Source: Pukyongia sp.
GTDB lineage: Bacteria > Bacteroidota > Bacteroidia > Flavobacteriales > Flavobacteriaceae
Length of the DNA stretch: 41,425 nt
NCBI GenBank assembly: GCA_030148705.1
Contig: JASBSY010000012.1
Coordinates: 1-41,425, forward strand
Reading direction: 5' to 3'
Both the position numbers and the translations under genes were made by a program. A model generated the notes under the pieces. It was not told where the DNA came from, made no database searches, and was given only the letters and a program-made list of their open reading frames with translations. Below, in pieces: positions 202 through 16,079 of the stretch (positions are counted from its first letter, which is position 1; the number at the start of each line of letters is the position of its first letter).

Positions 202-2772
202 CTAAAATTCCACTTGAAATGCGAAGTTTGGCGTGATGCCCACGGAAAATGATCGAATTTCGTTCAGGGACAGTTCCCCGGAATTTCGCTCCACAATGGC
301 ATATCGTATATTCAAGGTGTTCCTGGTATCCAACACATTCAGCAACGCCAGATTGATTCTTGCTGAAACCGAATCGGACCAATGCCACAGATATTCACCC
401 GATAAGTCCAGGCGGTAATAGTCCGGCAGGTTTTCGGAATTCGGAATCCCATACTGGATAGTATCTGTAATTCCATCCGAAATAATACTGTCCTCCTCGT
501 TTACCGCTGTGTAAGGTTTACCAGTTCTGTAGTTAAATCCCGCGGCAATTTTCACCTTACCCAGATTATACGAACCCGCCAGGGTGGATGTATGAGTTAT
601 ATCCAGATTATGTGGAAAGTTTGCAGGTTGAAGTTCGTCGAAGGTGTATTCATTGTTCAAAAAGGAGTAACTAAGCCAAATACTGTAGTCCCGGTGTTTC
701 TTGTTGATAACAAATTCGGTTCCTTTTGCTGAATAACTTCCTATGGTTCGCTCGAATTGAAATTGATTTTGAAAACCCTGGTTGGAAGAAGTAATACCGC
801 TTACATTTTTTGCAAAGCCGGTAGCCGTGATCATCCATTTATTTGTATCGTAAATAAGTCCAATCGACGCTTGTTCACTGGTGATGACGGGGAAGTTCAT
901 TTCATCGGCCAGTACCCATCTGCGTTTTTCTATTCCCAGAAAATCACTGTCAAAATCGATGCGCTGGGTGGTGGATTGGCTCTTTAATTCCCCCAGGGCC
1001 TCGACAGCGAAATTGCGCGCAACAACCTGGTTGAACGAAATCCTGGGTTCGAATAGTATTTTATCGAATTTCGAATAATAATTTATCCTAGCACCTGCAT
1101 TGATATTCGTTTCTTTACTCGGAGATTTATAATTAATCCCACTAAATAAAGCGTGAATTCGCAAAACCTGCTTATCGAAATCGAGAAAACGCGGCAAATT
1201 CACCTCCTGTTCATTGGTGATACCTGTTTCGGTGAATTGGTAACCCGTGGATAATGTAACTGTTGGAGACAGCGAAAACGTACTGTTTAATTTCAAACCG
1301 GTTTCAAGCACATCGTTTTCCTGAAAAACTTCCTGGGTGGTAAACAGGTCCTTGTTAAGTGCCCGAAGATAATAGGTAGTTCCGTAGGCCATCACGTTGG
1401 TTTGAAATGATTCGGACCATACCCTGTTCCAGGATAAACCGACCAAATAACTTTTCAGATCTAATTCACTGGTTTGTGAACGGTTGGTTTCTGCTATACT
1501 TTCGTTAAACTCCAGGGTGTTGTTTAAAGACAAAAAGTTAAGTCGAAATTTATCACGCCGGTTCGGATCCCATAAAACCCGGGTACTAAAGTCGTAAAAG
1601 CTAAAAGTTTCACCGGCTTCAACAGTTAAACCACTTTGGGAGGCATCGGTGTTGGTTATTTCCGAATCCTGGAAAATCCTTTCGGAATATTGTGTGTATA
1701 CGGGCGATTCCCAAAGCCCATTTAAAGATCCACGTGCGGAAAATTGAATCGACGCCTCGTCCGAAATTGGCGTATCCACGTAGATATTGGCATTAATTAA
1801 ATTAAAACCCGCTTCTCCGCTAAGCTCGGATGAAACCTTGTTGTTCGAACGCATCGCAATAACACTGGAAACACTTTCTCCGTAATAAGATGGGGTTCCA
1901 TTCTTATAGATGTCCACACTTTCGGTTATGTTTGGGTTGAATACGGTTATAAGTCCGAAGAAATGACCACTCTGATAGGCTTTAATGTCATTCCAAAGGA
2001 TTAAATTTTCGTCGTGCGTGCCTCCTCTGACGTTGATATTGGAAATGGTTTCGTTTACACTTTGAATTCCCGGTAGTGCCTGTGTTGACAACAATACATC
2101 TTTTTCAACTAAGCCGGGAAGAAGGCCGGAGTTTGAGGTTTCCAAAGAGAACGATCCATCAGCATTTTTTTCAACCCCTTCAATAAAATACTTTCTAATC
2201 ACAATAGGGTCGAGCACGGAAACATTGCGGTTAAGCAAAATTATTTCACAGCCGGAGGTCAATTCAGAAACAGGAATCCGCAAGTGCTCATAGCCCAGGA
2301 AGCGTATAGTTATCATTTGGCCTATAAGTGATTCAGGAATATTAAAGAATCCGTTGATATTGGATATAACAATTTCCGCTCCGGCCTGCTCAATACTCGC
2401 ACCTTCCAGAGGCATACCGGTGTCGGATGCGATTATTTGTCCGCAAAGCCTTGCTGTTTCAGTTCCTACGACCGTAATATACCGCTCATTGAGTTGATTG
2501 AAAGTGAACGGGATTTGCACCTCAAGATTCTGAAGATTGGCCTTCAGATCGTTCTGGACTTCAAAAATTACATCTATGTTTTCAATTTCAGCTTCGGAAT
2601 AGGAAAAACGCACTTCGAACCTTTGCTCGAGACTGTCTAATGCTGAAATTAAAGAAATCTTCTCCTGTGCTTGAGCCTCGGTATAGTTCCAGAACAGCAG
2701 TAGCGCAATTAGGGTAATATGTATTTCTCTAAGCTTGAGTCTATTTGGCATAAATCTTAACATCGTTTCCAT
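202..2772 (-). CDS. TonB-dependent receptor with STN signalling domain (module 1)
   Basis: This 856-aa outer-membrane receptor has a signal-peptide-like segment (LIALLLFWNYTEAQA). An STN domain follows at about residues 35-105 (SLISALDSLEQRFEVRFSYS...), then a carboxypeptidase-regulatory-like beta domain at about 108-180 (LCGQIIASDTGMPLEGASIE), a TonB plug at about 215-320 (ALPGIQSVNETISNINVRGG, FFGLITVFNP), and a beta-barrel ending in an aromatic residue (FQVEF). In FecA-type receptors the STN domain contacts FecR in the periplasm and passes on substrate binding. The gene overlaps the end of the fecR gene. The longest start at 2772 overlaps by 32 nt, while Met8 at 2751 overlaps by 11 nt and gives a more compact signal peptide, so the start is uncertain. 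The substrate is unknown. It is a close paralogue in layout of the receptor at 9722-12232. Confidence 0.93.
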   Translation of the reverse strand: METMLRFMPNRLKLREIHITLIALLLFWNYTEAQAQEKISLISALDSLEQRFEVRFSYSEAEIENIDVIFEVQNDLKANLQNLEVQIPFTFNQLNERYITVVGTETARLCGQIIASDTGMPLEGASIEQAGAEIVISNINGFFNIPESLIGQMITIRFLGYEHLRIPVSELTSGCEIILLNRNVSVLDPIVIRKYFIEGVEKNADGSFSLETSNSGLLPGLVEKDVLLSTQALPGIQSVNETISNINVRGGTHDENLILWNDIKAYQSGHFFGLITVFNPNITESVDIYKNGTPSYYGESVSSVIAMRSNNKVSSELSGEAGFNLINANIYVDTPISDEASIQFSARGSLNGLWESPVYTQYSERIFQDSEITNTDASQSGLTVEAGETFSFYDFSTRVLWDPNRRDKFRLNFLSLNNTLEFNESIAETNRSQTSELDLKSYLVGLSWNRVWSESFQTNVMAYGTTYYLRALNKDLFTTQEVFQENDVLETGLKLNSTFSLSPTVTLSTGYQFTETGITNEQEVNLPRFLDFDKQVLRIHALFSGINYKSPSKETNINAGARINYYSKFDKILFEPRISFNQVVARNFAVEALGELKSQSTTQRIDFDSDFLGIEKRRWVLADEMNFPVITSEQASIGLIYDTNKWMITATGFAKNVSGITSSNQGFQNQFQFERTIGSYSAKGTEFVINKKHRDYSIWLSYSFLNNEYTFDELQPANFPHNLDITHTSTLAGSYNLGKVKIAAGFNYRTGKPYTAVNEEDSIISDGITDTIQYGIPNSENLPDYYRLDLSGEYLWHWSDSVSARINLALLNVLDTRNTLNIRYAIVERNSGELSLNEIRSFSVGITPNFAFQVEF

Positions 2773-3640
2773 CTACCGAGAATCCAAGTTGAAGAGGATC
2801 GCAGATTGAGTGCAATGCCGTTTGAAGATCATTATGCCCAAAACTACCGGTAAATCTTTTATTTTGCAGCTGATTTGGAGCAAGTACGTCGATTTTATAA
2901 TGTTGTTTTAATTCCCTTATTACCTCTGCCAACACCACATTTTCAAAACTGCTCTCGCCGTTTAACCAATCGGGAGTAGAACGGCTAGTTTTCCCTTCGC
3001 TTACTAACTCATCATTTCTGATAGTAATTGTATTTCCCGCCGATAACTTAACTTCAGATCCCTTAAAGGAAACACTTACAAGTCCTTCGAAACATTTAAC
3101 CGAAAAAACCGAATCCCGGGAAAACACATTAAACTGTGTTCCCAGTACCTGCACTGTTCCTTGGGAAGTCTCAACTTCAAAGGTACTACCTTTATTTACT
3201 TTAAAAAACGCTTCCCCTGAAAGCCGGAGCTTTCTGTTTTCGTTCCAGTTTCTTTTTTTATAATGGAGACTCGAATTGGCGTTTAATTCTACCAGGGAGT
3301 TATCTGGCAGTTCAAAGCTTTTCTTTTGAGCTATATCGGTAGTTACTGTAGTCTCCAAATTTGAAACGAATAAATATCCGGCGATCACCAACACCAGCAT
3401 CGCTGCAATTTTATAGATTGTACTTCGGTAATTGCGAGTGGCTGGAGCAAGCCTTCTCGTCTTATTTTCCTGAATTGCTCGGTAGTTACGATCAGAATTG
3501 ACTGCAGGAGGCTCGAAGCCGGAAGTTGCATCTGCCAGCTGAACGTAATGGGCATATTCCGGAGACTCCGACAACAGCTTTTTTTCAGCTGCAGTGGCTT
3601 CGTTGTTAAGGTATTTATGAAGTAGTTCTTCTTTGTCCAT
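2741..3640 (-). CDS. FecR-family anti-sigma factor (module 1)
   Basis: This 299-aa inner-membrane regulator has a cytoplasmic N-terminus with short helices (MDKEELLHKYLNNEATAAE), one transmembrane segment at about residues 78-94 (IAAMLVLVIAGYLFVSN) and a periplasmic FecR domain at about 100-195 (ELPDNSLVELNANSSLHY, GEAFFKV, VLGTQFNV). A C-terminal DUF4974 region follows at about 228-298 (FENVVLAEVIRELKQHYKI...). In this family the N-terminus holds the ECF sigma factor and the C-terminus receives the signal from the receptor's STN domain. The start lies 55 nt downstream of the sigma gene, and that gap holds a copy of the shared ECF-type promoter (3659-3689), so fecR and the receptor gene are probably transcribed from it. 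Translation is likely coupled to the receptor gene through the overlap. Confidence 0.93.
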   Translation of the reverse strand: MDKEELLHKYLNNEATAAEKKLLSESPEYAHYVQLADATSGFEPPAVNSDRNYRAIQENKTRRLAPATRNYRSTIYKIAAMLVLVIAGYLFVSNLETTVTTDIAQKKSFELPDNSLVELNANSSLHYKKRNWNENRKLRLSGEAFFKVNKGSTFEVETSQGTVQVLGTQFNVFSRDSVFSVKCFEGLVSVSFKGSEVKLSAGNTITIRNDELVSEGKTSRSTPDWLNGESSFENVVLAEVIRELKQHYKIDVLAPNQLQNKRFTGSFGHNDLQTALHSICDPLQLGFSVDGNDVKIYAK

Positions 3641-3658: not shown

Positions 3659-3689
3659 TAAAAACCGTTGAGTAAACAAATACCCTACT
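3659..3689 (-). promoter_or_regulatory. ECF-type promoter before fecR (module 1)
   Basis: On the minus strand AGTAGGGTA (3689-3681) is followed by GTTTTTA (3665-3659). The register is 24 nt from motif start to -10 start, the same as in the four other copies in this window. The -10 end is 18 nt before the fecR ATG. It is the most diverged -10 of the five. Found by eye; no expression data. Confidence 0.65.
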
Positions 3690-3695
3690 CAAGTT

Positions 3696-4202
3696 TCAAA
3701 TATTTTCGAATTCTTTTCTTAGCTCACTAAGTGCCTGGCTCATTCTTTTTTCCACTGCTTTTACACTAATCTCCAGAATTTCGGCTATTTCCCTGTATTT
3801 TTTACCCTCTATGCGATTCAGTAAGAAGGCTGTTCGCTGGGCTTCACCCAGGTTGGCAATAGCAGCTTGCAATTTCTTGTAATATTGTTGCTCTTCAAGT
3901 AAAAATTCGGGAGTTTGATTATTTACCCTCGTTGGAGCCAGTTTCGCGTGGTTTAAGACCACCTTGGCATGGGCTACCTCATTTAAAAAGGCATTGTTCG
4001 TTACTGTAAATAAAAATCCCTTCGCCTTGCTCACAGGCACTTTGGCGCAGTTATTCCACAATTTTATAAAGGCCTCCTGGACCAGATCGTCGGCTTGGGC
4101 AGTATCGCCACATTTATAGTATATAAAACGCCATACCGCATCACTCAATTCCTTGTAAACCCGGCCAAATATTTTTTCTTCACATACGTTGGACTCGTCC
4201 AT
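3696..4202 (-). CDS. ECF RNA polymerase sigma factor, FecI-like (module 1)
   Basis: This 168-aa sigma-70 family protein has only regions 2 and 4. Region 2 spans about residues 10-60 (VYKELSDAVWRFIYYKCGD, ADDLVQEAFIKLWNN) and binds the -10 element. Region 4 spans about 112-166 (AQRTAFLLNRIEGKKYREIA, ISVKAVEKRMSQALSELRKE) and binds the -35 element. It is followed by fecR and an STN receptor, the standard cell-surface signalling layout. It is divergent from a lipoprotein gene, and the 106-nt gap holds both an ECF-type promoter for the lipoprotein and a TATATTTG housekeeping-type element facing this gene. I infer that the sigma gene is made constitutively while fecR, the receptor and the lipoproteins are its targets. 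Its recognition helix differs from that of the paralogue at 13182-13697 (ISVKAVEKRMSQA versus ISRKAVEKRIYSA). Confidence 0.94.
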   Translation of the reverse strand: MDESNVCEEKIFGRVYKELSDAVWRFIYYKCGDTAQADDLVQEAFIKLWNNCAKVPVSKAKGFLFTVTNNAFLNEVAHAKVVLNHAKLAPTRVNNQTPEFLLEEQQYYKKLQAAIANLGEAQRTAFLLNRIEGKKYREIAEILEISVKAVEKRMSQALSELRKEFENI

Positions 4203-4225
4203 ATAGTTCCTTGATGACTTTCAGC

Positions 4226-4233
4226 CAAATATA
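4226..4233 (-). promoter_or_regulatory. Housekeeping -7 element (TAnnTTTG) for sigma gene 1
   Basis: Minus-strand TATATTTG, 23 nt upstream of the sigma ATG, matches the Bacteroidota -7 consensus TAnnTTTG. I see no clear TTG element at the expected upstream distance, so this is a partial match. Confidence 0.45.
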
Positions 4234-4251
4234 TAAAAACATACGATGTTG

Positions 4252-4282
4252 GGTAGGGTAAATGTATAATTGGCTGTTATAT
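4252..4282 (+). promoter_or_regulatory. ECF-type promoter before lipoprotein 1
   Basis: GGTAGGGTAAAT starts at 4252 and GTTATAT occupies 4276-4282, 26 nt before the ATG. The same two boxes in the same 24-nt register occur before lipoprotein 2 (6542-6572), lipoprotein 3 (13734-13764) and both fecR genes. The GGTAGGG box resembles the purine-rich GG-type -35 of ECF promoters. Confidence 0.75.
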
Positions 4283-4308
4283 TATAAATTGCGACCTAAA
4301 TCTAACCA

Positions 4309-6093
4309 ATGAAGAAATTTGCAGTATTATTAAGTTTAGTTCTAATTGCAGCATCTTTTTTGTGGTCATGCCAGAAGGAAGAGCGAAAATTCATTGATGA
4401 AACAGACAATGAAACAATTACTTCGGCCTCGGATCTCACACTTTTATTGTTGAGGACAGCTTCTAATAATGGCTTGGTAGATGATCTTATAGACGAGAAC
4501 AGTTGTGCATCGGTAGCCTACCCCTTTAGTGTCATTGCCAATGGACAGCAGGTAGTACTGGAAAGTAGTGACGATATTCAGACCATTGAGCAGATATTCG
4601 ATCAATTTCCCAACGATACAGACACACTGGAGATTATTTTTCCCATCACGGTGGTGCTAAACGATTTTACCCAATTAACCGTTAATAACCAGGAGGAACT
4701 TCAGGCACTTCGCGAGGCCTGCGAAAATGGAGAAACCAATACTCCTATAACCTGCCTGGATTTAGTTTATAACTTAAATTTCTTTGTGTACGACTCCAAC
4801 CAGCAGCAAACCGGAACCGTATCGCTCGATTCGGATGTTGAACTATACTTATTTATACAAAGTCTTGATCCCGAAAATTACATAAGCATAGACTTTCCTG
4901 TGTCGGTTGTTCTCAACGACGGTTCCACCACCGTGGTTGAAACAAATTCACAATTACAGCAGCTCATTAACGAATGCGTTGAAAATAGTAGTACCGACCC
5001 TATTGATCAGGAACTCTTTGAAGAGCAACTTACAACCGACTCCTGGTTTGTTACCTATTTCTTTGATGATTTCGACCGAACGGCCGAGTTCGATGGGTTT
5101 CAATTCGAGTTTAACACCAACAATACTGCCTCAGCGACGGATGGAGCGATTTCTGAAACAGGTAACTGGATGTTTTTCGGGGGTGCCAATCCACAGCTTG
5201 AATTATTCTTTGGGAGTAATGTCCCATTCGACGAACTCGACCAAACCTGGGATATCCTCGAAGCCGGGGATGATCTTATTCGCCTGAGAAATGTAAGCTC
5301 GGACGGCAGTACCGATTATATATCCTATGGGCGCAATCCCGCAACGGGAAATGCCAATGCGACCAATACGCTTATCGATGAACTGACAACCGCCAGCTGG
5401 TTTGTAACGCTTTACGACGACGGCGGAACCGATGAAACATGTGATTATATAGCCTATGAATTTACCTTTAATTTAGATGGCACGGCTATGGGTGAAACAT
5501 CTTCAACCAGTATCGATGGGTTCTGGGCGGTTGTAAACAATAATAACGATCTGCGCCTTATCCTCAATTTCGACTCCAGCGGATCCGGCAATCCGCTTGG
5601 GGAGTTAAATGACAACTGGGACGTAACCGACCACAATATAAATTTAATTCAACTTCAGGATGGTACCGGCGGCGGAGCTGATATCCTACTCTTTGGCCGA
5701 ACTTCACCCACCGGTTGCGGTGGAGGTGGAGGCGGAGGCGGAGGCGGAGGGTCAAACCCTCAGGAACTTCGTGATGTCATGCAATCGGGTACCTGGTTTG
5801 TAGCACAGTTCCTGGACGATGGTGACGATGAGACTGCAGATTTTAACGGTTTCGACTTTACCTTCTTACCCAACGACATAGTGTCGGCCCAAAATGGAAA
5901 TCAAACGGTACCGGGAATTTGGATAGTATCGGTAATTGGAAATGAACTCAATTTTGAGTTTGATATGGATAGCCCGATAAACGGAGCTGATGATGACGAA
6001 TATAAAGTAGTTCAGTTTACAGAGACTTCTGTGACTTTTGTAACGCTGAATAATGGAATGATTGAGGATACCCTCATATTCAATAAGAATTAA
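4309..6093 (+). CDS. Modular surface lipoprotein 1 (two Cys-Cys modules, three beta repeats)
   Basis: I do not recognise this 594-aa protein. It starts with a lipoprotein signal peptide (lipid Cys21), and the next residues QKEER resemble the Q-K-acidic-acidic surface-export signal known from Capnocytophaga. Two modules each begin and end with a Cys: Cys66-Cys138 and Cys149-Cys223, the second with LVYNLNFFVYDSNQQQ and IDFPVSVVLNDGS. Three beta-rich repeats follow, centred on Trp246, Trp364 and Trp496. Each runs W-F/Y-V-T, an acidic cluster (such as DDGDDETADF), a G.W strand, an L.L.F strand and usually a W-D segment near the end. Repeat 2 has an extra Cys pair (Cys378, Cys470). Eleven Gly codons (5719-5751) link repeats 2 and 3. 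A lipocalin-like fold is possible but unproven. It is divergent from sigma gene 1 and has an ECF-type promoter, so it is probably a regulon member and perhaps a ligand-binding partner of the receptor. Confidence 0.9.
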   Translation: MKKFAVLLSLVLIAASFLWSCQKEERKFIDETDNETITSASDLTLLLLRTASNNGLVDDLIDENSCASVAYPFSVIANGQQVVLESSDDIQTIEQIFDQFPNDTDTLEIIFPITVVLNDFTQLTVNNQEELQALREACENGETNTPITCLDLVYNLNFFVYDSNQQQTGTVSLDSDVELYLFIQSLDPENYISIDFPVSVVLNDGSTTVVETNSQLQQLINECVENSSTDPIDQELFEEQLTTDSWFVTYFFDDFDRTAEFDGFQFEFNTNNTASATDGAISETGNWMFFGGANPQLELFFGSNVPFDELDQTWDILEAGDDLIRLRNVSSDGSTDYISYGRNPATGNANATNTLIDELTTASWFVTLYDDGGTDETCDYIAYEFTFNLDGTAMGETSSTSIDGFWAVVNNNNDLRLILNFDSSGSGNPLGELNDNWDVTDHNINLIQLQDGTGGGADILLFGRTSPTGCGGGGGGGGGGGSNPQELRDVMQSGTWFVAQFLDDGDDETADFNGFDFTFLPNDIVSAQNGNQTVPGIWIVSVIGNELNFEFDMDSPINGADDDEYKVVQFTETSVTFVTLNNGMIEDTLIFNKN

Positions 6094-6331
6094 TTATGAA
6101 AAAGAAATTTTTTTAGTTTGTTGATAAGGTGATTTTCTGTGTATTGAAAATAGAACGTGATCGAAAAAAGTTGCTACTATCCCCACAGATTCGAATACAT
6201 GTGAAATTTTCGGGATCTGCCCCAAGTCCGACACAGAAAGTCACTTACTTTAAATCTTCCGAAAAAGATTATATCGATAAACTATTGAAGCGTAAATTCT
6301 CTGTTTTGATTGTTTAGTTAGTTAATTATTA

Positions 6332-6463
6332 AAGGCATTCTTCGTTAGGGATTCATCACGAGCTGTACTTCCGGAATAACAATTGGTTCCTTATATCTGA
6401 ATCTGCAATTGAGTAGGTTAACTCCGGACGGTTCTGTTGGACGAGATCTAAAAAGAATGCCTT
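6332..6463. repeat. Widely spaced 11-bp inverted repeat
   Basis: AAGGCATTCTT at 6332-6342 is the exact reverse complement of AAGAATGCCTT at 6453-6463; the arms are 110 nt apart. The interior is not open over its full length in any frame I could read. It may close a structured RNA or mark the ends of a small decayed element. Confidence 0.5.
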
Positions 6464-6541
6464 CATTTTAATTTCCCACCTCCTGTTTTTTTTTGTCTGT
6501 TCGTCGGAAATCGGTTCAAACGATAATCTTTTTTATTCTTT

Positions 6542-6572
6542 GGTAGGGTAAATTCAGAATAGGCTGTTCTAT
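6542..6572 (+). promoter_or_regulatory. ECF-type promoter before lipoprotein 2
   Basis: GGTAGGGTAAAT at 6542-6553 and GTTCTAT at 6566-6572 keep the 24-nt register. The -10 ends 27 nt before the ATG, nearly the same leader length as lipoprotein 1. The first 12 bases are identical to the lipoprotein 1 copy, while the surrounding gap is otherwise dissimilar. Confidence 0.75.
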
Positions 6573-6599
6573 TTATATAACGATAAAAATTTTAAACCT

Positions 6600-8126
6600 A
6601 TGAAAAAATTAACCAATCTTTCCATGTTACTACTGTGTTGCCTTACACTGGTTTTTAGTGCATGTAATAGAGATGAATTGCCAACTGAAGGAGATCCGCA
6701 GGATTCAATAAATACCACTTCTCCTTTGTCCGATTTAATTCTCGCCATATCTCAGGACAGCAGTTCTCCAGATGCAATAGACTGTATTGATTTTGTATAT
6801 CCAATAACTTTTTTTGTTTACGACTCCAATCAGCAGCAAACAGGGTCACAAACTGTTAACAGCGACACGGAATTGTTGCAATTCCTTTCAGGACTGAACG
6901 TAAACCATTCATATTCGATCGATTATCCAATTGAGGTAATTTTACAGGATGGAAGCATCGTTGAAGTTAATTCGAACTCTGAACTTCAGGGACTGATAGA
7001 ATCTTGTGAGTCGGGAGGAAATCAGGTTCCCAGCAATTTGGAACAGATTTTAACCACCGGAAGTTGGTTTATAACCTACTTCTTCGACGACCAGGATGAA
7101 ACCTCAAACTATGCCGGCTATGAATTCTCATTCAGTACCGACAATACTGCACAGGCTACAAATGGGTCAAACACCGTAAACGGGATTTGGTCCCTAACAT
7201 CCGGCTCCACTCCCGATCTGAATTTATTCTTCGGAACAACTAGTCCTTTTGATGAACTTGACGAAGACTGGGATATCATTGAAGCAACCCAGGATATTAT
7301 CCGCCTGAAGCACATCAGCGGTGGGAATGGTGATGTAGACTTCCTTACCTACGAGCGCAATCCGGGATCCGGAGGCGGCGGAGGCGGCGGTGGCGGACAG
7401 GGATCCGGCCCGCTAGTAGATGTTCTTATCGATGGAGTGTGGTATGTAACCTTATTGGAGGATGATGGGAATGATGAAACCTGCGATTATCAGCCTTACG
7501 AATTTACGTTTAATTCCAACCAGACAGTAGTTGCTGCTAGTACAAATAATACCGTAAATGGTACCTGGGCTGTAACTAATGATTCCGGTACATTCGATCT
7601 TATTTTGAATTTCGACATCTCCGGTCCGGACGACCCATTTGAAGATCTGAACGACGATTGGGATGTGTTGGCATACGATATGCAAAACATTAATCTGATA
7701 GATGTAAGTGGTGGAAATGGTGGAACTGATTACTTGAACTTCGGTCGTCAGCCGGTTACAAATTGCGGCGGCGGCGGAGGCGGTGGAGCCCCGCTGGGTG
7801 ATGTCCTTGTCGATGGCCAGTGGTACGTACAAAGTTACGTGGACGATGGCGACGACCAAACAGGGCTTTACCAGGGCTACACACTTACATTCAATACGGA
7901 CGGAACCGTGATTGCCGTTAACGGAAGCACAAATATTTCAGGGACATGGAATGTCTTTGGCGGCGCAAACGACTTGCACCTTGATCTGGATTTTGGTTCA
8001 CAATTCCCCTTTGATGAATTCAATGATGACTGGGACGTAAGTAATTATACCGATATACTGGTTGAATTATTTGATATAAGCGGTGGTAATGGAGGCACCG
8101 ATTACTTGACCTTCGCTAAACTATAA
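6600..8126 (+). CDS. Modular surface lipoprotein 2 (one Cys-Cys module, three beta repeats)
   Basis: This 508-aa paralogue of lipoprotein 1 is also unrecognised. It has a signal peptide with lipobox FSAC (lipid Cys22), followed by NRDE. It has a single Cys-to-Cys module (Cys62-Cys136) with DFVYPITFFVYDSNQQQTG, almost the same wording as the second module of lipoprotein 1. Three beta repeats are centred on Trp156, Trp281 and Trp408, with acidic clusters such as DDGNDET and DDGDDQT, and W-D segments before each final strand. Repeat 2 again carries an extra Cys pair (Cys295, Cys389). Gly tracts of 9 (residues 258-266) and 7 (390-396) codons join the repeats. It ends at a strong terminator. The promoter matches that of lipoprotein 1, so both are probably co-induced by sigma 1. 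Function unknown; surface display and ligand or polymer binding are inferences. Confidence 0.9.
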   Translation: MKKLTNLSMLLLCCLTLVFSACNRDELPTEGDPQDSINTTSPLSDLILAISQDSSSPDAIDCIDFVYPITFFVYDSNQQQTGSQTVNSDTELLQFLSGLNVNHSYSIDYPIEVILQDGSIVEVNSNSELQGLIESCESGGNQVPSNLEQILTTGSWFITYFFDDQDETSNYAGYEFSFSTDNTAQATNGSNTVNGIWSLTSGSTPDLNLFFGTTSPFDELDEDWDIIEATQDIIRLKHISGGNGDVDFLTYERNPGSGGGGGGGGGQGSGPLVDVLIDGVWYVTLLEDDGNDETCDYQPYEFTFNSNQTVVAASTNNTVNGTWAVTNDSGTFDLILNFDISGPDDPFEDLNDDWDVLAYDMQNINLIDVSGGNGGTDYLNFGRQPVTNCGGGGGGGAPLGDVLVDGQWYVQSYVDDGDDQTGLYQGYTLTFNTDGTVIAVNGSTNISGTWNVFGGANDLHLDLDFGSQFPFDEFNDDWDVSNYTDILVELFDISGGNGGTDYLTFAKL

Positions 8127-8150
8127 ACCTCCATATTAATGATGCCCAAC

Positions 8151-8182
8151 AAAAAAGTCATCCTGAAAAGGATGACTTTTTT
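8151..8182. terminator. Bidirectional terminator between convergent genes
   Basis: A perfect 13-bp stem (8151-8163 with 8170-8182, core GTCATCC/GGATGAC) has A-runs and T-runs on both flanks. It can end the lipoprotein 2 transcript and the M28 peptidase transcript. Confidence 0.9.
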
Positions 8183-8199
8183 ATTTAGTGGAGCCATAA

Positions 8200-9681
8200 T
8201 TAATTTCCGTAAAGGCTTTTACCCGCGTCTTCGTATTTATCACCCTTATTCCACTGTGGCTTAACATCGTCGTTGGCGATCTTCCTGCCCGAAAGCACAT
8301 AAGCCCGGAAAAATTTCTCCAGGTAGTCATAATCCAGCGTATTTGCATGGTCGCCGGGCTGATGATAATACTTGGTCACTTCCCCGTCGAAAGAGGTAAA
8401 CCCCATCGAGAAAGTAGGCGCTGGGATACCCTTGGCGGCAAAATGAACATTGTCGCTGCGGTCGAACAAACCTTGTTCGGGTGCCGGATCTTCAATGGCA
8501 GTTAGGCCAAATTCGGATGCGGCCTCCTTAATATTCTTTTCAGCCGATGTTCGTTCCAGTCCGACGATTGTAGCCTTCGAAGTATCATTGTATCCGCCGT
8601 TGTCACTGTTAAAGCAAAATACCATCTGATTTAACGGCAATACAGGGTTTTCAACATAATACTGGCTACCCAGAAGACCTTTTTCCTCTGCGGTGAAGAG
8701 AATAAACAAGGCAGATCGCTTGGTAGGATATTTTGCCAGGTTTTTGGCCATGCTCAATACGGTGGTAGTTCCCACGGCGTTATCTCTAGCACCGTTATAG
8801 ATAGTATCACCACTTGCATCGGGCTGTCCAATCCCAACGTGATCGTAATGCGCCGAATAGATGATATATTCATTCTTTAATGTAGGATGGGTGCCTTCCA
8901 CAATTCCTATTACATTTTGTGAGATTACAGGCTCTACCTTGCCTTTGGACATTTGGAGCTTTATTGGGATGACCGACCTTGCTTCCACGTCCATTTGCAG
9001 ACTTCCGTATTCATCCTGCACCCATATATGCGGAAAGCCCTCGTCTTTTTTATTGGGAGATGATTCGTTTACTGCCTTTAATTTTTCCGACATAAATTCG
9101 TGCTCTACATACCTCCAGATACTTGCATCGATCTTAACGAGTTCAATGATGCCTAAAGCACCTGCTTCTCGCGCCAGTTGTGCTTTTTTTTCAGCGAGAC
9201 TATAGATAGCTATGGCAGAACTGTTAGCGGGACTGCCCCCTTTTACAAGGACGATTTTCTTACTTACATCCTTACCCTTGTAATCCTCTTCCAGTCCGTA
9301 ACCTACGTTCACGACATTATCGGAGTATTTAATCGTACCCTGTCCCACCGCGACCTTACGCTTATACTCTTTCCCGTCCAGTTCGAATAAAATTCCGGCA
9401 GGTGGATGGACTTTTTCCATTTTAACTTGTTGATAATAATCTCCCGTTTTCGGGTTGGGCTTTACGCCGTAACTCCTTAAGGTGTTGGCCAGGTATGAAG
9501 CTGCTATCTTGTTTTCCGGTGTACCTGCTTCTCGCCCTTTTAAGAGATCGTCTGCCAGAAAATAAATATGGCCTTCAATGGTATGCTTGTTCACAGTTTC
9601 CGCAACCAGCTCTGTCTCGGTCTGGGCATGACTGCAAAGAGTAATAGCTGCTGAAAAAACAGCCAGGATGATTTTTTTCAT
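8200..9681 (-). CDS. Secreted M28-family zinc metallopeptidase
   Basis: The 493-aa product has a signal peptide (AVFSAAITLCSHA) and an M28 catalytic domain with an inserted PA-like domain (about residues 125-215, KKIVLVKGG, ALGIIEL). The two-zinc centre is visible: HYDH at about 278-281, GARDN with the bridging Asp, FTAEEKGLLGSQYY with the catalytic and metal Glu, NSDNGG, and a late His in YYHQPGDHANTLDYDYL. Members are aminopeptidases or carboxypeptidases acting in the periplasm or outside. It lies 40 nt downstream of receptor 2 on the same strand, so read-through is possible, but a TATCTTTG element in the gap suggests its own housekeeping promoter. Confidence 0.92.
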   Translation of the reverse strand: MKKIILAVFSAAITLCSHAQTETELVAETVNKHTIEGHIYFLADDLLKGREAGTPENKIAASYLANTLRSYGVKPNPKTGDYYQQVKMEKVHPPAGILFELDGKEYKRKVAVGQGTIKYSDNVVNVGYGLEEDYKGKDVSKKIVLVKGGSPANSSAIAIYSLAEKKAQLAREAGALGIIELVKIDASIWRYVEHEFMSEKLKAVNESSPNKKDEGFPHIWVQDEYGSLQMDVEARSVIPIKLQMSKGKVEPVISQNVIGIVEGTHPTLKNEYIIYSAHYDHVGIGQPDASGDTIYNGARDNAVGTTTVLSMAKNLAKYPTKRSALFILFTAEEKGLLGSQYYVENPVLPLNQMVFCFNSDNGGYNDTSKATIVGLERTSAEKNIKEAASEFGLTAIEDPAPEQGLFDRSDNVHFAAKGIPAPTFSMGFTSFDGEVTKYYHQPGDHANTLDYDYLEKFFRAYVLSGRKIANDDVKPQWNKGDKYEDAGKSLYGN

Positions 9682-9703
9682 GATGAATGATTTTTAATTC
9701 GGC

Positions 9704-9711
9704 CAAAGATA
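9704..9711 (-). promoter_or_regulatory. Candidate -7 element for the M28 peptidase gene
   Basis: Minus-strand TATCTTTG fits TAnnTTTG and lies 22 nt before the ATG, inside the short gap after receptor 2. No matching TTG element is evident upstream. Confidence 0.4.
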
Positions 9712-9721
9712 CATAATTCGC

Positions 9722-12232
9722 CTAGAAACTTAATCGAAATGTAGCGTTAGGCGTGAATGACAAAGCGTGTTCACCCATCTTTTCGGCCTTGTTATTATTA
9801 TCAATTCGGAAGAAATAATTGAGTTGGTTGGTAGTGTGAAGAAGATTCCAGAACGACAGTCCTGCAAAGGCTTCAATTTTCCGGCCGATATTAAAGGTGT
9901 AGGTGCCCGAAAGGTCGATTCGGAGGTAATCGGCAATATTCGAATCATTGGGACTGTCGAAATTAAGATCGCCATTCACTATTTCCATTCCTTGGACCAA
10001 ATTTGTAATAGGTTTACCGCTGCGCCAATTGAGCCCTGCCGACACTTTAAATTGGTTTGGCGCATAGGTGATGCCATAGGTGAAGCTGTGCCGGATATCT
10101 ATATTATTTGGGAAGTCTGAAGGTTCGAGTTCCTCGAAGGTGTAATTGTTCTCGGCATACGAATAGCTAAGCCAGGTATTGATATTATGAAAGCGCTTGT
10201 CGAGTAAAATATCGATCCCGGTTACGAAATATTCACCGTGAGTTCTCGTACTTTCGAACTGATTTTGAAACCCCTGGCTCTGGGTAGTGATACCGGTGAT
10301 TTTCTTCACATAGGATTCGAAATTAACCAGCCACCCGTCACGACTGTAATTAACACCTGCCGAAAACTGCTGCCCTTTAAGAATCGGTATTCTTCCGGGG
10401 CTTGATAATACCCACCGGCGATTCTCAACTCCGAGAAAGTCATTCTGGAAGTCGATGATCTGGGAAGTTGTCTGACTTTTTAATTCCCCGGCAATATCCA
10501 CTGAAAAATACGACCAGAAGCGGTGATTTATACTGAAACGGGGCTCCAACAGTATTTCGTCGAACTTTTCAATTTGATTGAGGCGTAAGCCGGCTACAAA
10601 AGTGGTATTCTTTGTGGGAGTTCGCATTTTAAATTCAGAAAATACACTCTGGGTGCGCAACACCTGTTCATCGGTAATTTCAAAAAACGGATTATTGATT
10701 TGCTCAAAATTAGTTATACCTGTTTCATTGAATTGATAACCCGCCATGACGTTGCTGTTCTCAGTTATCGAGAACCGGCCCATCACCTTTATACCCGATT
10801 CCAGCAGTTCGTTTGTTTGCAAGAGTCGCTGTGCATTAAGGATATCAAAATTCGTGGCCTGCAGCTCGTATTGGGTGGCGTAAAACTGGATCTCGGAGTT
10901 AAAATATTCACTCCATTGTCTTTTATAATTAATACCGGCAGAGATGTTATCCTGCCCCAGTTCACTTTGAAGCGACTGCCTTTCGCCGTCGACGACAGCC
11001 GTTTCCAGGAACTCCAGCTTATTGCCTAAAAACAACAGGTTTAACCTTAATTTGTCTTTGAAGGTTGGTTTATACTGAAAGCGAAGATGCGAATCGTAAA
11101 AGGTAAAATCATCGTTAGATGCCATTTGTATCTCATTGTTGGAAACGACTTCCGTATTTTGAAATGCCTGATCGAAATAAGAAGTATACGTAGGTGTTTC
11201 CAGGAGATTATTAAAAGATTTTCTGCCGGCAACCTGCAGGGACGCCTTGTTGCCTAATGGCAGATCTAAAAAAGCGTCGGTGCTTATTAGGTTGATGCCC
11301 CAGCCACCCGAAATGTCGGTATTGATCTCGTTGTCGCCTTCCATACTTATGATTCCCGAAACACCGTCGCCGAATTCGGCACTACTGCCGTTTTTTATAA
11401 CTGTTACTTTTTTGGTCAAGAACGGATTGAATGCTGAAATAAGACCAAAGAAATGACCACTCTGATACATCTTTATCCCATCCCAGAGGATAAGGTTCTG
11501 GTCATTGGTGCCTCCCCGAATATTGATGTAAGACACCTGCTCATTAACACTTTGAATTCCGGGTAAGGCCTGTATGGTTTGAAGCACATCCGGCTCGATC
11601 AATCCGGGCACTATGTCGAATTCATCGTAGTCTACGGTAATGGACCCATTTGCGTTTTTAGTGATTCCGCGTGCGAGATAATTAACAAGGGTCACGGTGT
11701 TCAGGAATTCAATCTTCCGGTAAAGTACTGTTGATAAACATCCGGTGGAAGGGAGTTCGGCCGTATTGATTGCCTTTTGCTCATAACCGGTATGTGATAC
11801 GATTATTTCTTCCGAAGCACCCCTGTACAGAAATGAAATCACCCCATTGGAGTCCGTACCCAGTTGCTGATAGGGGGTTCTAACGGCTACGTTCTCGAAA
11901 GCCGATCCGCTTTCAAATTTAAGCACATTTATACAACCCATGAACAGGTTGGTCTTTAGACTAACTGCAACTGTATTGTCTTCTAATATGGTGAAATCGA
12001 AGAGGGTATTACTGCTTAACCAATCCACGGCTTCCGAAAGTGACTCCGCTTCGGGGACCTGCGAAAAATGATTAGTGATATCGACATCCTTGTAGGCAAA
12101 GACACAGGAATATTGTTGCTCGATGATATCAAAAACCTGGCGAAGGGAATTGCTGTTGTCAGGGGTTTGCCCTGTCAAAGAATTTAAATTAAGAATAAAA
12201 AAAAGTAATACTAACTTTCTTAAATAGGTCAC
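9722..12232 (-). CDS. TonB-dependent receptor with STN signalling domain (module 2)
   Basis: This 836-aa outer-membrane receptor is a paralogue of the one at 202-2772. A signal peptide (LVLLFFILNLNSLTG) is followed by an STN domain at about residues 28-93 (LRQVFDIIEQQYSCVFAYKD), a carboxypeptidase-regulatory-like domain at about 97-170, and a plug at about 205-310 (QALPGIQSVNEQVSYINIRG, QSGHFFGLISAFNP). The beta-barrel ends in FRLSF. The plug wording (QSGHFFGLI..FNP) is almost shared with receptor 1, but the STN and beta domains are diverged, which suits different partners or ligands. The ATG overlaps the fecR stop by 4 nt (ATGA), a sign of translational coupling and a good reason for this start. 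Confidence 0.93.
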   Translation of the reverse strand: MTYLRKLVLLFFILNLNSLTGQTPDNSNSLRQVFDIIEQQYSCVFAYKDVDITNHFSQVPEAESLSEAVDWLSSNTLFDFTILEDNTVAVSLKTNLFMGCINVLKFESGSAFENVAVRTPYQQLGTDSNGVISFLYRGASEEIIVSHTGYEQKAINTAELPSTGCLSTVLYRKIEFLNTVTLVNYLARGITKNANGSITVDYDEFDIVPGLIEPDVLQTIQALPGIQSVNEQVSYINIRGGTNDQNLILWDGIKMYQSGHFFGLISAFNPFLTKKVTVIKNGSSAEFGDGVSGIISMEGDNEINTDISGGWGINLISTDAFLDLPLGNKASLQVAGRKSFNNLLETPTYTSYFDQAFQNTEVVSNNEIQMASNDDFTFYDSHLRFQYKPTFKDKLRLNLLFLGNKLEFLETAVVDGERQSLQSELGQDNISAGINYKRQWSEYFNSEIQFYATQYELQATNFDILNAQRLLQTNELLESGIKVMGRFSITENSNVMAGYQFNETGITNFEQINNPFFEITDEQVLRTQSVFSEFKMRTPTKNTTFVAGLRLNQIEKFDEILLEPRFSINHRFWSYFSVDIAGELKSQTTSQIIDFQNDFLGVENRRWVLSSPGRIPILKGQQFSAGVNYSRDGWLVNFESYVKKITGITTQSQGFQNQFESTRTHGEYFVTGIDILLDKRFHNINTWLSYSYAENNYTFEELEPSDFPNNIDIRHSFTYGITYAPNQFKVSAGLNWRSGKPITNLVQGMEIVNGDLNFDSPNDSNIADYLRIDLSGTYTFNIGRKIEAFAGLSFWNLLHTTNQLNYFFRIDNNNKAEKMGEHALSFTPNATFRLSF

Positions 12233-13125
12233 TGTCGGTTGTTTTTGAGAACAACATTTTTACCGTTAATACTATAAGACAAGTTAAGAGGAATTGTAAT
12301 CGCCTGCAAGGCGGTTTCTAAGTTTTCGTGAGAAAATGTTCCTGTAAAGGCTGTAGTGTTGTCTACAGGCGTACCGGTGATTTCGATATCGTACTGACGT
12401 TCCAGTTCGCTTACTACCTGGTGAAAAGGGACACTTTTAAAAATTGTTTTTTGGTCCAGCCATTCCGGGTACTCGGCCCGGGTGGATTCGGCAAATATCT
12501 CACTGCCCAGCGATTTAAATGATTGTCCTGCAGCCAACAGCTGCTTTTTATTGTTAAAAACCACTTCAACCCGGCCTTCATAACAAACCACCTCGAAAAA
12601 ACCGGGACGATCCTTTACTTTGAACTGGGTGCCTATAACGCGGATTGTACCCTGAGGAGTGGACACGGAGAATGTACTGCCACCGGCCACCTTAAAATAG
12701 GCTTCTCCTTTAAGGCTCAACTCCCTTTTTTCAGGCCAGTCGTTTGCGTCGTAAGTAAGTAGAGACTCTGCATTCAATATTACTTCGGAAGAATCGGGCA
12801 AACGAAGTTCGGTTGTGATTCCATTCTGAGCATGATGTGATGTGGTTGAAGAATTCAGAAAATAGAGAGTTCCCAAGCAAACTACCAGAATAGCAGCAAT
12901 TGCCGAAATACTCTGCAATAGTGGTCTGGTTTTGCGTTGATGCTTTAGCTTTTCCTGAAGTAAAAGGTAACTCTTTTCATTGTCTAAAGCAGGAGATTTA
13001 AACAATTTGGCCGTTTCAGATATCTTGTGATAAGAACCGGAAGCATCCAGTTTGTTGAAGGCCTCCAGTTCACTATCATCAAGGTTAAAGTCTAACCATT
13101 TAGAAATTAAATCTTTCTTTTTCAT
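12229..13125 (-). CDS. FecR-family anti-sigma factor (module 2)
   Basis: The 298-aa protein repeats the FecR layout: cytoplasmic N-terminus (MKKKDLISKWLDFNLDDSEL), one membrane span at about residues 72-90 (SAIAAILVVCLGTLYFLNS), FecR domain at about 100-195 (LRLPDSSEVILNAESLLTYD, GEAYFKV, VIGTQFKV), and a C-terminal DUF4974 region (FKSVPFHQVVSELERQYDIE...TALQAITIPLNLSYSINGK). It overlaps the receptor gene by 4 nt and starts 56 nt after the sigma gene. The gap contains an ECF-type promoter (13140-13170). Expected to hold sigma 2 inactive until receptor 2 signals. Confidence 0.93.
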   Translation of the reverse strand: MKKKDLISKWLDFNLDDSELEAFNKLDASGSYHKISETAKLFKSPALDNEKSYLLLQEKLKHQRKTRPLLQSISAIAAILVVCLGTLYFLNSSTTSHHAQNGITTELRLPDSSEVILNAESLLTYDANDWPEKRELSLKGEAYFKVAGGSTFSVSTPQGTIRVIGTQFKVKDRPGFFEVVCYEGRVEVVFNNKKQLLAAGQSFKSLGSEIFAESTRAEYPEWLDQKTIFKSVPFHQVVSELERQYDIEITGTPVDNTTAFTGTFSHENLETALQAITIPLNLSYSINGKNVVLKNNRQ

Positions 13126-13139
13126 ATCAATTTCTGTTA

Positions 13140-13170
13140 ATAGAACAATTAGCCGGCAAAAATTCCTACC
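13140..13170 (-). promoter_or_regulatory. ECF-type promoter before fecR (module 2)
   Basis: On the minus strand GGTAGGAATTTT (13170-13159) and GTTCTAT (13146-13140) keep the 24-nt register. The -10 ends 14 nt before the fecR ATG. Its -35 flank (GGAATTTT) matches that of lipoprotein 3 rather than the module 1 promoters. Confidence 0.72.
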
Positions 13171-13181
13171 CCCCGGTTCAA

Positions 13182-13697
13182 TTAAATTCCTTCAATATCC
13201 TCTCGTAGCTTTTCCAGGGCACTATAGATGCGCTTTTCGACGGCTTTTCTAGAGATATTTAAGATTTCCGCTATCTCTTTATGTCGCTTACCTTCCACCC
13301 GGTTCAACATAAAGGCAACCCGCTGTGCTTCGGTTAGGTTCGCCAGGGCGGTTTCAAATTTCTCGAGATATTCCTTTTCTTCCAGGACAAACTGAGGTGA
13401 TTCCGCAGTTAGGTTGGTTTTTATGGTCTTTTGAAATTTAAGCACTACTTTTTTGTGCTTGATATCGTTTAAGGTAAGATTGTTGATTACCGTAAACAGG
13501 TAACTTTTGGCCTTATCCGGAGAAACTTTCTTACAATTCCGCCACAATTTTATAAACGCTTCATGAACCTTATCCTCCGGATCGAATTGCTCCCCGAATT
13601 TGTAAAAGATAAAATCGTGTAAATCCTTCGAATACCGTCTATAGAGTTTGGAAAACAACTGTTCATTACAAACATCTTTATTTAAAGGGGTTGGCAT
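13182..13697 (-). CDS. ECF RNA polymerase sigma factor, FecI-like (module 2)
   Basis: The 171-aa product has region 2 (about residues 12-62: LYRRYSKDLHDFIFYKFGE, PEDKVHEAFIKLWRNCKKV) and region 4 (about 113-168: AQRVAFMLNRVEGKRHKEIA, ISRKAVEKRIYSALEKLRED). It is clearly paralogous to the sigma factor at 3696-4202, with the same downstream fecR and receptor. It is divergent from lipoprotein 3, whose ECF-type promoter lies in the 85-nt gap. A TATATTTA sequence at 13712-13719 on the minus strand is a near match to the housekeeping -7 element. Confidence 0.94.
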   Translation of the reverse strand: MPTPLNKDVCNEQLFSKLYRRYSKDLHDFIFYKFGEQFDPEDKVHEAFIKLWRNCKKVSPDKAKSYLFTVINNLTLNDIKHKKVVLKFQKTIKTNLTAESPQFVLEEKEYLEKFETALANLTEAQRVAFMLNRVEGKRHKEIAEILNISRKAVEKRIYSALEKLREDIEGI

Positions 13698-13733
13698 CTG
13701 GAGATTTTTCGTAAATATAAAAATATATTATAT

Positions 13734-13764
13734 GGTGGGAATTTTATATTTTGAGTTGTTATAT
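13734..13764 (+). promoter_or_regulatory. ECF-type promoter before lipoprotein 3
   Basis: GGTGGGAATTTT (13734-13745) and GTTATAT (13758-13764) have the same 24-nt register as the other four copies. The -10 ends 18 nt before the ATG at 13783. This position rules out the longer reading frame beginning at 13648, whose first 45 codons would cover the promoter and overlap the divergent sigma gene. Confidence 0.72.
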
Positions 13765-13782: not shown

Positions 13783-14433
13783 ATGAAATACCTCGTGTAT
13801 TTTTTATTACTAATCGGAATTATCTCTTGTCAGGAGGAACAGCTATTAATAGTTGAGGAACAACCCGATGAGGCACTCACAATCGACGAGCAGCTACGTG
13901 ATTTAGTTGTCTCGGTAGCAGCTCATGACGGATCCTTCGACGATGTCGTGGACAATTCGTCCTGTTTCAGTATCGATTTTCCATATGTGTGCACGTATAA
14001 CGGGCATGAGTACCCGATGAATTCACGGCAAAGTCTTGAGCCCTGGAATAAGGGGGATGTACTAATACCTGTTTTTCCGGTCACGATTACTTTTGCAAAT
14101 CATCTTAAAGCAGAAGTTCCCGATGCGGAAACCTATAAGAATTTAATTGCGCTGTGTGCCAGTGGCGATCTGTTCGACGAGATTATTAATTGCGTGGATC
14201 TGGTTTATCCCATAAGCATCTCAACCTACGACAAAGTATCTTCCAATTTTGAGACGCTCACCCTTAATCATGACAAACAGACTTTTGAAACCATCGTTGA
14301 CTTCAATGAGAATATATTGGTAAGCGTTAATTATCCAATTCAAATAGAATTAGAAAACGAGGTTGTCCTCACAATATACTCTAACGATATGCTGAAAAAC
14401 GAAATTCTGGATATCGTACCGTTTTGTGAGTAA
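13783..14433 (+). CDS. Surface lipoprotein 3 (two Cys-Cys modules)
   Basis: I chose the start at 13783, giving 216 residues, because it begins a clean lipoprotein signal peptide (YFLLLIGIISC, lipid Cys16, followed by QEEQ) just after the ECF-type promoter. The protein has the two Cys-to-Cys modules of the family, Cys61-Cys125 and Cys137-Cys215 (CVDLVYPISISTYDK, VNYPIQIELENEV), with an extra Cys70 in the first, but lacks the beta repeats and Gly linkers of lipoproteins 1 and 2. The Cys-Cys module is therefore the common part of all three and may be the functional core. Function unknown. It is divergent from sigma gene 2 and probably belongs to the sigma 2 regulon. Confidence 0.88.
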   Translation: MKYLVYFLLLIGIISCQEEQLLIVEEQPDEALTIDEQLRDLVVSVAAHDGSFDDVVDNSSCFSIDFPYVCTYNGHEYPMNSRQSLEPWNKGDVLIPVFPVTITFANHLKAEVPDAETYKNLIALCASGDLFDEIINCVDLVYPISISTYDKVSSNFETLTLNHDKQTFETIVDFNENILVSVNYPIQIELENEVVLTIYSNDMLKNEILDIVPFCE

Positions 14434-15870: not shown

Positions 15871-16079
15871 AATTTTCTTGTTTAGTTAATAAAAGTCTGC
15901 ACACTGAATTAGATAATAACTAGTTATACTTCAGCTGTTGTAATGTCGATAAATCTTAAATTTAGCTAAGGAAAAGTTGAAAAGATTCGGGTGAGAATAA
16001 TCCAAATGTTTGATTTACAAACAGTTTAAAGATAGGGAATCCTGCCATGGAAGTGTTATAATCCGACTAGCGATTATTC
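15871..16079. promoter_or_regulatory. 209-nt intergenic region with two small palindromes
   Basis: It lies upstream of the minus-strand gene at 15109-15870. It contains a perfect 12-bp palindrome ATAACTAGTTAT (15916-15927) and an inverted repeat TGTTTG-N5-CAAACA (16007-16023). I see no exact TAnnTTTG element. Either palindrome could be an operator, but there is no direct support. Confidence 0.35.

Follow-up and report, generated by a model that had tools for sequence, protein, structure and literature searches.

The DNA examined here, hereafter the window, is a 41,425-nucleotide stretch of Pukyongia sp. (Flavobacteriaceae; assembly GCA_030148705.1, contig JASBSY010000012.1, positions 1 to 41,425 of the forward strand), and our subject is a bipartite sequence element that recurs around its two FecI-type signalling modules. 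Each module holds the FecI-FecR-FecA gene set, with an extracytoplasmic function (ECF) sigma factor, a FecR-like anti-sigma/regulator and a TonB-dependent receptor encoded in that order on the minus strand. In module 1 these are ECF sigma factor 1 (3696..4202; Sigma70_r2 and r4_2 domains, recognition helix SVKAVEKRMSQAL), FecR 1 (2741..3640; FecR and FecR_C domains) and receptor 1 (202..2772; Plug domain); in module 2 they are ECF sigma factor 2 (13182..13697; Pfam sigma domains, recognition helix SRKAVEKRIYSAL), FecR 2 (12229..13125; FecR and FecR_C) and receptor 2 (9722..12232; Plug). The plus strand carries genes for lipoprotein 1 (4309..6093), lipoprotein 2 (6600..8126) and lipoprotein 3 (13783..14433). 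TIGR02985 (Sig70_bacteroi1) was the top NCBIfam model for both sigma factors, though its cut-off of 126.4 bits was not reached by either sigma 1 (115.6 bits) or sigma 2 (115.9 bits).

The initial annotation had aligned five sites by eye and proposed for them one pair of boxes with identical spacing. Inspection of the window sequence located all five at the positions and on the strands given there, and a search of the window with RGTRGGR-N17-GTTNT returned exactly these five, compared with a mean of 0.15 and a maximum of 1 match in 100 dinucleotide shuffles. This clustering is real and not a product of chance. On the plus strand, predicted ECF promoters precede lipoprotein 1 (4252..4282; GGTAGGG-N17-GTTATAT, matrix score 25.2), lipoprotein 2 (6542..6572; GGTAGGG-N17-GTTCTAT, 24.0) and lipoprotein 3 (13734..13764; GGTGGGA-N17-GTTATAT, 19.4). 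On the minus strand, they lie between sigma gene and fecR, ahead of the fecR1-receptor1 operon (3659..3689; AGTAGGG-N17-GTTTTTA, 18.7, the lowest of the five) and the fecR2-receptor2 operon (13140..13170; GGTAGGA-N17-GTTCTAT, 22.5). As the annotation had it, four of the five read GTTMTAT in the second box, the exception being 3689-3659 with GTTTTTA, and the end of this box stands 14 to 27 nt from the ATG. The -35 type of the site at 4252..4282, GGTAGGGT, was kept in all seven same-genus genomes. The trained matrix described below gave one extra match scoring at least 13 in the window; a site-like match at 16031 (plus strand, score 16.0), in the gap preceding a gene on the opposite strand, probably arose by chance.

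Counts for the whole 2.89-Mb genome were obtained from pattern searches and selected stretches. Five of its 16 matches to RGTRGGR-N17-GTTNT fall within the 41-kb window, or 1.4 percent of the genome, which excludes an equal frequency at random positions. A reversed control pattern gave 11 matches; the pattern is at background outside the window, so only the clustering and placement of the sites are special. The tighter pattern GGTAG-N18/19-GTTNTAT gave 10 matches compared with 1 for its control in the same genome, and a tighter pattern gave 39 compared with 14 for the reversed control in seven same-genus genomes. With the loosest pattern, four genomes gave 12 matches compared with 13 for the control, 10 with 6, 18 with 11 and 14 with 14, and because these counts are about those of the controls, lists of pattern matches were not relied on by themselves. 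A match at C4:10002 before a leucine-rich-repeat gene was rejected as a regulon member for poor orthologue support, the protein having no match in three of the six other same-genus genomes and partial matches (30-38 percent identity) in the other three. Intragenic matches (e.g. C7:183345 and C12:8125) were discarded as likely chance. One further site was seen at C9:7782, upstream of a gene for an exported protein.

A search of the genome with the FecR_C model returned three FecR genes and a fourth match inside a receptor. The third FecR gene belongs to a module on contig C17, in which the ECF-FecR-receptor order is retained and the divergent gene encodes a SusD protein. This module carries its own pair of sites, GGTAGTAA, with GGTAGTAAATTTTAATGTGAACTGTTCTAT upstream of fecR and GGTAGTAATTTGTGTTGTGAGCTGTTTTAT upstream of susD, and a spacer one base shorter than that of the window sites.

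To follow the element beyond this genome, a receptor profile search yielded 80 loci, to which 40 stretches from further relatives were added. From this collection plus the window and the C17 stretch, we parsed 115 ECF-FecR modules, and dropping four duplicates left 111. In each module, site A denotes the fecR side (between the ECF gene and fecR) and site B the side of the divergent lipoprotein or SusD gene. A bipartite model trained by expectation maximisation (EM) consists of a 10-base and an 8-base block, with a spacer of 13 in 93 percent of cases and of 12 in 5 percent. At a threshold of 8, this model, which was trained on the scored regions themselves, found site A in 100/111 modules (antisense 0/111, shuffles 2/555) and site B in 91/111 (antisense 1/111, shuffles 3/555). 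As the trained model had seen the same regions, a matrix built from the five window sites only was applied to the other modules at a threshold of 9, with the window's two modules and C17 excluded. Site A was recovered in 96/108 held-out modules (antisense 0/108, shuffles 24/1080) and site B in 88/108 (antisense 0/108, shuffles 78/1080). The element is conserved upstream of orthologues on both sides, and this conservation, together with its non-random placement, supports the proposal in the initial annotation that the sites form a sigma-specific promoter set.

The eleven modules missed at site A by the trained model include five with a TCAGGA variant, one with a GGGTAA variant and one (L172) with a weak site, GTTAGGGA, all placed by eye. 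Nine loci had no parsed module. Two of these, one cut (L081) and one with no FecR found (L177), were left out of the count, and in the seven with a usable fecR start the site precedes fecR in 7/7; in these the sigma gene was missing through a cut, lay 0.7 to 3.3 kb away or went undetected. Three loci (L056, L061 and L093) retain the promoter with fecR while the sigma gene sits 0.7-3.3 kb away.

A sample of 198 genomes across the phylum provided additional modules, with the locus of the best match taken from 29 other genomes. One of 17 modules (L300) was the same as L168, and 16 were hence counted as new; their sigma factors score 202-260 bits and share 54-93 percent identity with their closest first-set counterpart. 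Some are kin to each other (L298, L299, L301 and L302 are 86-91 percent alike, L304 and L305 88 percent). Site A was found in 16/16, fifteen scoring at least 15 and the other (L297) carrying, by eye, the TCAGGA variant expected from its helix KVVEYRIY. Site B was found in 15/16, again with the L297 variant placed by eye, and was absent in L292. In L304 and L305 (helix SQKTVEKRMS), both sites have the GTC-type -10 box seen in their first-set relatives. Twelve other ECF sigma factors from the sample (three at 150-179 bits, nine at 58-99) gave site A scores over 8 in 0/12 cases, the highest being 7.5; no fecR was found for L310 and L318, and L318 had no scorable region. At L309, a strong motif (25.2) precedes the sigma gene itself, which is more divergent in sequence (175 bits); motif and sigma gene share a strand, and fecR follows 3 nt later. 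On sequence grounds this arrangement is a different, autoregulated wiring.

Within a module, the two promoters vary together. In modules where both sites scored over 8, the base at -35 position 7 (G or A) was the same at both in 89/90, compared with a permutation mean of 52.5 and maximum of 67 in 2000 runs, and the spacer length was equal in 90/90. Among the 19 family modules dropped by the score condition, both sites could be placed by eye in 14, with position 7 agreeing in 14/14. The letters between the boxes are barely more alike within modules (similarity 0.42) than between them (0.36), so the promoter pairs are not copies of one another. The exceptions are L064 and L074, in which both promoters are identical, spacer included, as though one had overwritten the other. 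Across the three modules of the seven same-genus genomes, the fecR-side -35 type follows the module and not the genome in 21/21 cases: GTAGGGT, GTAGGAA, and GTAGTAA with the short spacer.

Region 4.2 of a sigma factor contacts the -35 box and region 2 contacts the -10 box. We examined the association of residues with bases over 107 sites (51 effective) from the 109 family modules, the siteless L174 and L175 being excluded. At the -35 box, position 6 tracks residue 151 (E, replaced by G in module 3 and by R in L171), position 2 tracks residue 152 best and also 130 and 149, position 3 tracks residue 158 best and also 146, and position 7 tracks residues 37, 154, 155, 156 and 147. At the -10 box, the change from GTT to GTC tracks region 2 residues 23, 56, 20 and 67. 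Direct reading by the sigma factor fits this pattern, in which the -35 changes map for the most part to the recognition helix and that of the -10 box to region 2. The helix and -35 pairs are VEKRM or VEKRIH with GTAGGGT, VEKRIY with GTAGGA, VVEYRIY with TCAGGA, AAGKRIH with GTAGTA and AARKRIY with GGGTAA. A rule drawn from the first set, that I154-Y155 goes with A at -35 position 7 and other combinations with G, held at site A of the further modules in 16/16. With phylogenetic correction, no residue-to-base code could be established for want of independent changes, and the relation was kept as a correlation with this check in further modules.

The primary sigma factor of Bacteroidota uses the box TAnnTTTG (PMC7366714, PMC9723704). 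Between the sigma gene and site B, on the strand of the sigma gene, this box occurs in 61/91 modules, compared with 9.4 in shuffles and 15/91 on the opposite strand, and in 54/91 it lies 14-24 nt from the -35 block of site B. In window module 1 the candidate sigma-A -7 box of the ECF1 gene, TATATTTG, is at 4226..4233 on the minus strand, with 18 nt separating it from the -35 block of the divergent promoter of lipoprotein 1. The ECF gene seems to be served by its own sigma-A promoter, arranged back to back with that of the lipoprotein, and the two would fall within one polymerase footprint. On the sense strand, TAnnTTTG was found in 5/100 site A regions and 5/91 site B regions.

Sites also occur beyond the modules, here scored with the trained matrix. 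In all seven same-genus genomes, one orthologous gene has a site at most some 230 bases ahead of it (scores 15.7-25.4). In the window's genome this is the first gene of an operon encoding a flavin/iron-sulphur reductase and two multihaem cytochromes; operon content was inspected in this genome and one relative. A second, downstream site in the same direction at this locus is present in 6/7 genomes and absent in the window's. A cupredoxin gene is preceded by a site in all six same-genus genomes with a match to the protein (scores 13.1-24.0), the seventh having no match to it, and YceI-like and DUF5777-like genes follow it in the three relatives inspected (Pfam was run on one). No other ECF sigma factor found in the genome scores above 48 bits against the module sigma family, which leaves the three module sigma factors as the likeliest readers of these sites, and the distal operons are probably under their control.

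Taken together, the presence, spacing, position, conservation and co-variation of the sites are best explained, and very probably correctly so, if they are promoters read by the adjacent FecI-like ECF sigma factor and the modules are signalling loops. A sigma-A promoter, with the candidate TAnnTTTG box on the strand of the sigma gene, would transcribe that gene, and the outer-membrane receptor and FecR would hold or release its product. In direct binding, region 4.2 of the freed sigma factor would read GTAGG[G/A] at -35 and region 2 would read TGTTnTAT at -10, the seven-base boxes being separated by 17 bases (16 in module 3). Transcription would then start on the fecR-receptor operon, from the promoter between the sigma gene and fecR, on the divergent gene for the surface lipoprotein or SusD protein, and probably on the distal operons, so that the signal would pass from the receptor to all of these. 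As the sigma factor would make its own FecR and not itself, the loop should limit itself. In addition, the short distance between the back-to-back sigma-A and ECF promoters would hardly leave room for two polymerases at once, so that the sigma gene may be braked a second time. Paralogous modules in one genome may be partially insulated through paired changes of helix and -35 box. A fuller version of this mechanism, that such paired changes, of region 4.2 helix with -35 box, keep a natural series of paralogous ECF sigma factors insulated, that each loop is self-limiting through its own FecR and through occupancy of the lipoprotein promoter blocking the sigma-A promoter, and that the network also commands multihaem cytochromes in the genus, is offered tentatively, as a possible but less than even prospect.

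Several observations weigh against this interpretation. Residue 37, which ranks first for -35 position 7, lies outside region 4.2. The rule for position 7 is broken at site B of L291, and L064 and L074 have L154-Y155 yet G at this position. On a FecR tree of 109 rows, Y155 changes once and -35 position 7 three times, with one independent pair; with so few independent changes, the link between residue and base is inseparable from shared descent. Site A was not recognisable in 4/111 modules (L174, L175, L176 and L047_12454), the sigma factors of the last two scoring 45 and 60 bits. Window module 2 has no exact TAnnTTTG box. The agreement in 89/90 modules is conditioned on both sites scoring over 8, and in 5 of the 19 modules dropped by this condition the two sites could not both be placed by eye. 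The module 3 promoters differ from each other at -35 position 6 in 6/7 genomes (T at fecR, C at susD), and in L170 the -10 box of site B is the GTC of another sigma group while site A fits its own sigma factor. Genome-wide, the patterns alone occur at or near the control rate.

Alternatively, the three sigma factors of the genome may share all of the sites, as one common regulon whose variant bases reflect drift. The module variants do differ at one to three -35 positions only, some distal sites have mixed features (e.g. GTAGGG followed by A), and the susD-side -35 box of module 3 varies between genomes (GGTAGTA in this genome, GGTAGCA in three and GGTATCA in three others). Against this, the module-specific fecR-side type is kept across the seven genomes, and position 7 agrees within modules, a step that plain drift would not keep; we consider a common regulon unlikely. 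The initial annotation had predicted the lipoproteins and the FecR-receptor operons to be members of one regulon type. Its promoter reading is supported, with a refinement: as each module's own -35 variants go with its own sigma factor, parallel cognate regulons are likelier than one.

Two further accounts would remove the ECF sigma factor from the sites altogether. The boxes could serve as an operator at which a separate DNA-binding protein, activator or repressor, controls the modules jointly, since conserved bipartite boxes about two helical turns apart can act in this way. By inspection, however, the sites are non-palindromic and have a single orientation relative to the gene, and they stand at a short, narrow distance from the fecR ATG (median 17 nt over 100 modules). 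The scarcity of a sense-strand sigma-A box in the site A regions and the way in which the variants track the neighbouring sigma factor, even among the three modules of one genome (21/21 fecR-side sites), also argue against an operator, which appears very improbable. That the sites are ordinary primary-sigma promoters of unusual look is the least credible account of all; the two promoter types do share a terminal T/A-rich box close to the start codon, and the low sense-strand counts of TAnnTTTG at site A and site B given above speak against it. Promoters read by the adjacent ECF sigma factor remain the preferred explanation.

As to the remaining products of the modules, a Pfam scan for an N-terminal signalling domain returned Plug and a sub-threshold CarbopepD_reg_2 for receptor 1 and Plug for receptor 2, and receptor 3, on C17, has a match to the FecR_C model near its N-terminus (27.8 bits, above cut-off). 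Lipoprotein 1 has a lipobox by eye and no Pfam family. Lipoprotein 2, with lipocalin-like stretches, scores 27.3 bits as a whole protein against the GH43_C lipocalin-like model (cut-off 23.4), no single stretch passing. Lipoprotein 3 has no Pfam family; its structural model (mean pLDDT 82.6) contains two beta-beta-beta-alpha repeats and found no fold match in the PDB at an E-value of 0.001 or better, and no function is claimed for it on that account. The divergent lipoproteins (the three window genes and the divergent genes of L028-L107) resemble each other in a repeated Cys-bounded stretch and have no Pfam family. A simple lipobox pattern is matched by 65/92 divergent proteins.

The modules resemble the FecI-FecR-FecA system of E. 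coli in genes, with an ECF sigma factor, a FecR-type regulator and a TonB-dependent receptor. In E. coli, sigma-70 makes fecIR, whose transcription is not autoregulated (PMC9249621), as would hold for the sigma gene here. There fecI is cotranscribed with fecR and FecI controls neither gene, whereas the predicted promoter in the gap ahead of fecR would place that gene under the sigma factor here. The HasI-HasS system, which is proteobacterial and dedicated to haem and in which HasS is the anti-sigma factor, has the same loop logic as that predicted here. HasI controls hasS, and hasI is not autoregulated (PMC9249621).

Within Bacteroidota, the comparison is with SigW-1 and promoter motif PM2 of B. 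thetaiotaomicron (PMC12596196, PMC7366714). A TGTT box near -10 at two promoters of the SigW-1-controlled part of a polysaccharide utilisation locus has been proposed there as an ECF recognition element, and this box is shared with the sites described here. In the passages of these two papers considered, MEME gave the SigW-1 motif no significance, the sequence of the -30 element is not given and, unlike here, promoter variants are not paired with sigma variants. In F. psychrophilum, motif SM6 is likewise an ECF-type promoter motif in a member of the Flavobacteriaceae, differing in its -10 box, CGT, and in its association with T9SS genes; in the part of the source considered, its authors assign no definite share to the seven ECF sigma factors of that species (PMC9723704). 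A literature search that covered mostly the openings of abstracts identified no description of the bipartite motif; the motifs of the ECF classification paper lay outside this comparison, and unpublished status is not claimed. In the passages considered of PMC9723704, PMC12596196, PMC7406223, PMC10766802, PMC7366714, PMC9249621 and PMC3646045, no description of the motif was found, an occurrence of GTAGGG in PMC3646045 being part of a primer. New relative to the initial annotation are the apparent back-to-back sigma-A promoter of the sigma gene and the conserved sites before the multihaem cytochrome operon and the cupredoxin gene.

For the ECF sigma factors of Bacteroidota, known promoters are few, and in 2020 no motif was yet known for any ECF sigma factor of B. 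thetaiotaomicron, according to the passages considered of a transcriptome paper on that species (PMC7366714). As the switch sequence changes in step with the sigma factor, the genes turned on by each sensor appear to be predictable from sequence. If the -35 box can be read from the sigma helix, regulons of this family, which comes mostly from Flavobacteriaceae, could be predicted from genomes; candidate orthogonal promoter-sigma pairs would become available for laboratory use, and the insulation of paralogues would become testable. The conserved distal sites, finally, would tie surface sensing to electron-transfer genes, a connection not suggested by the window alone.

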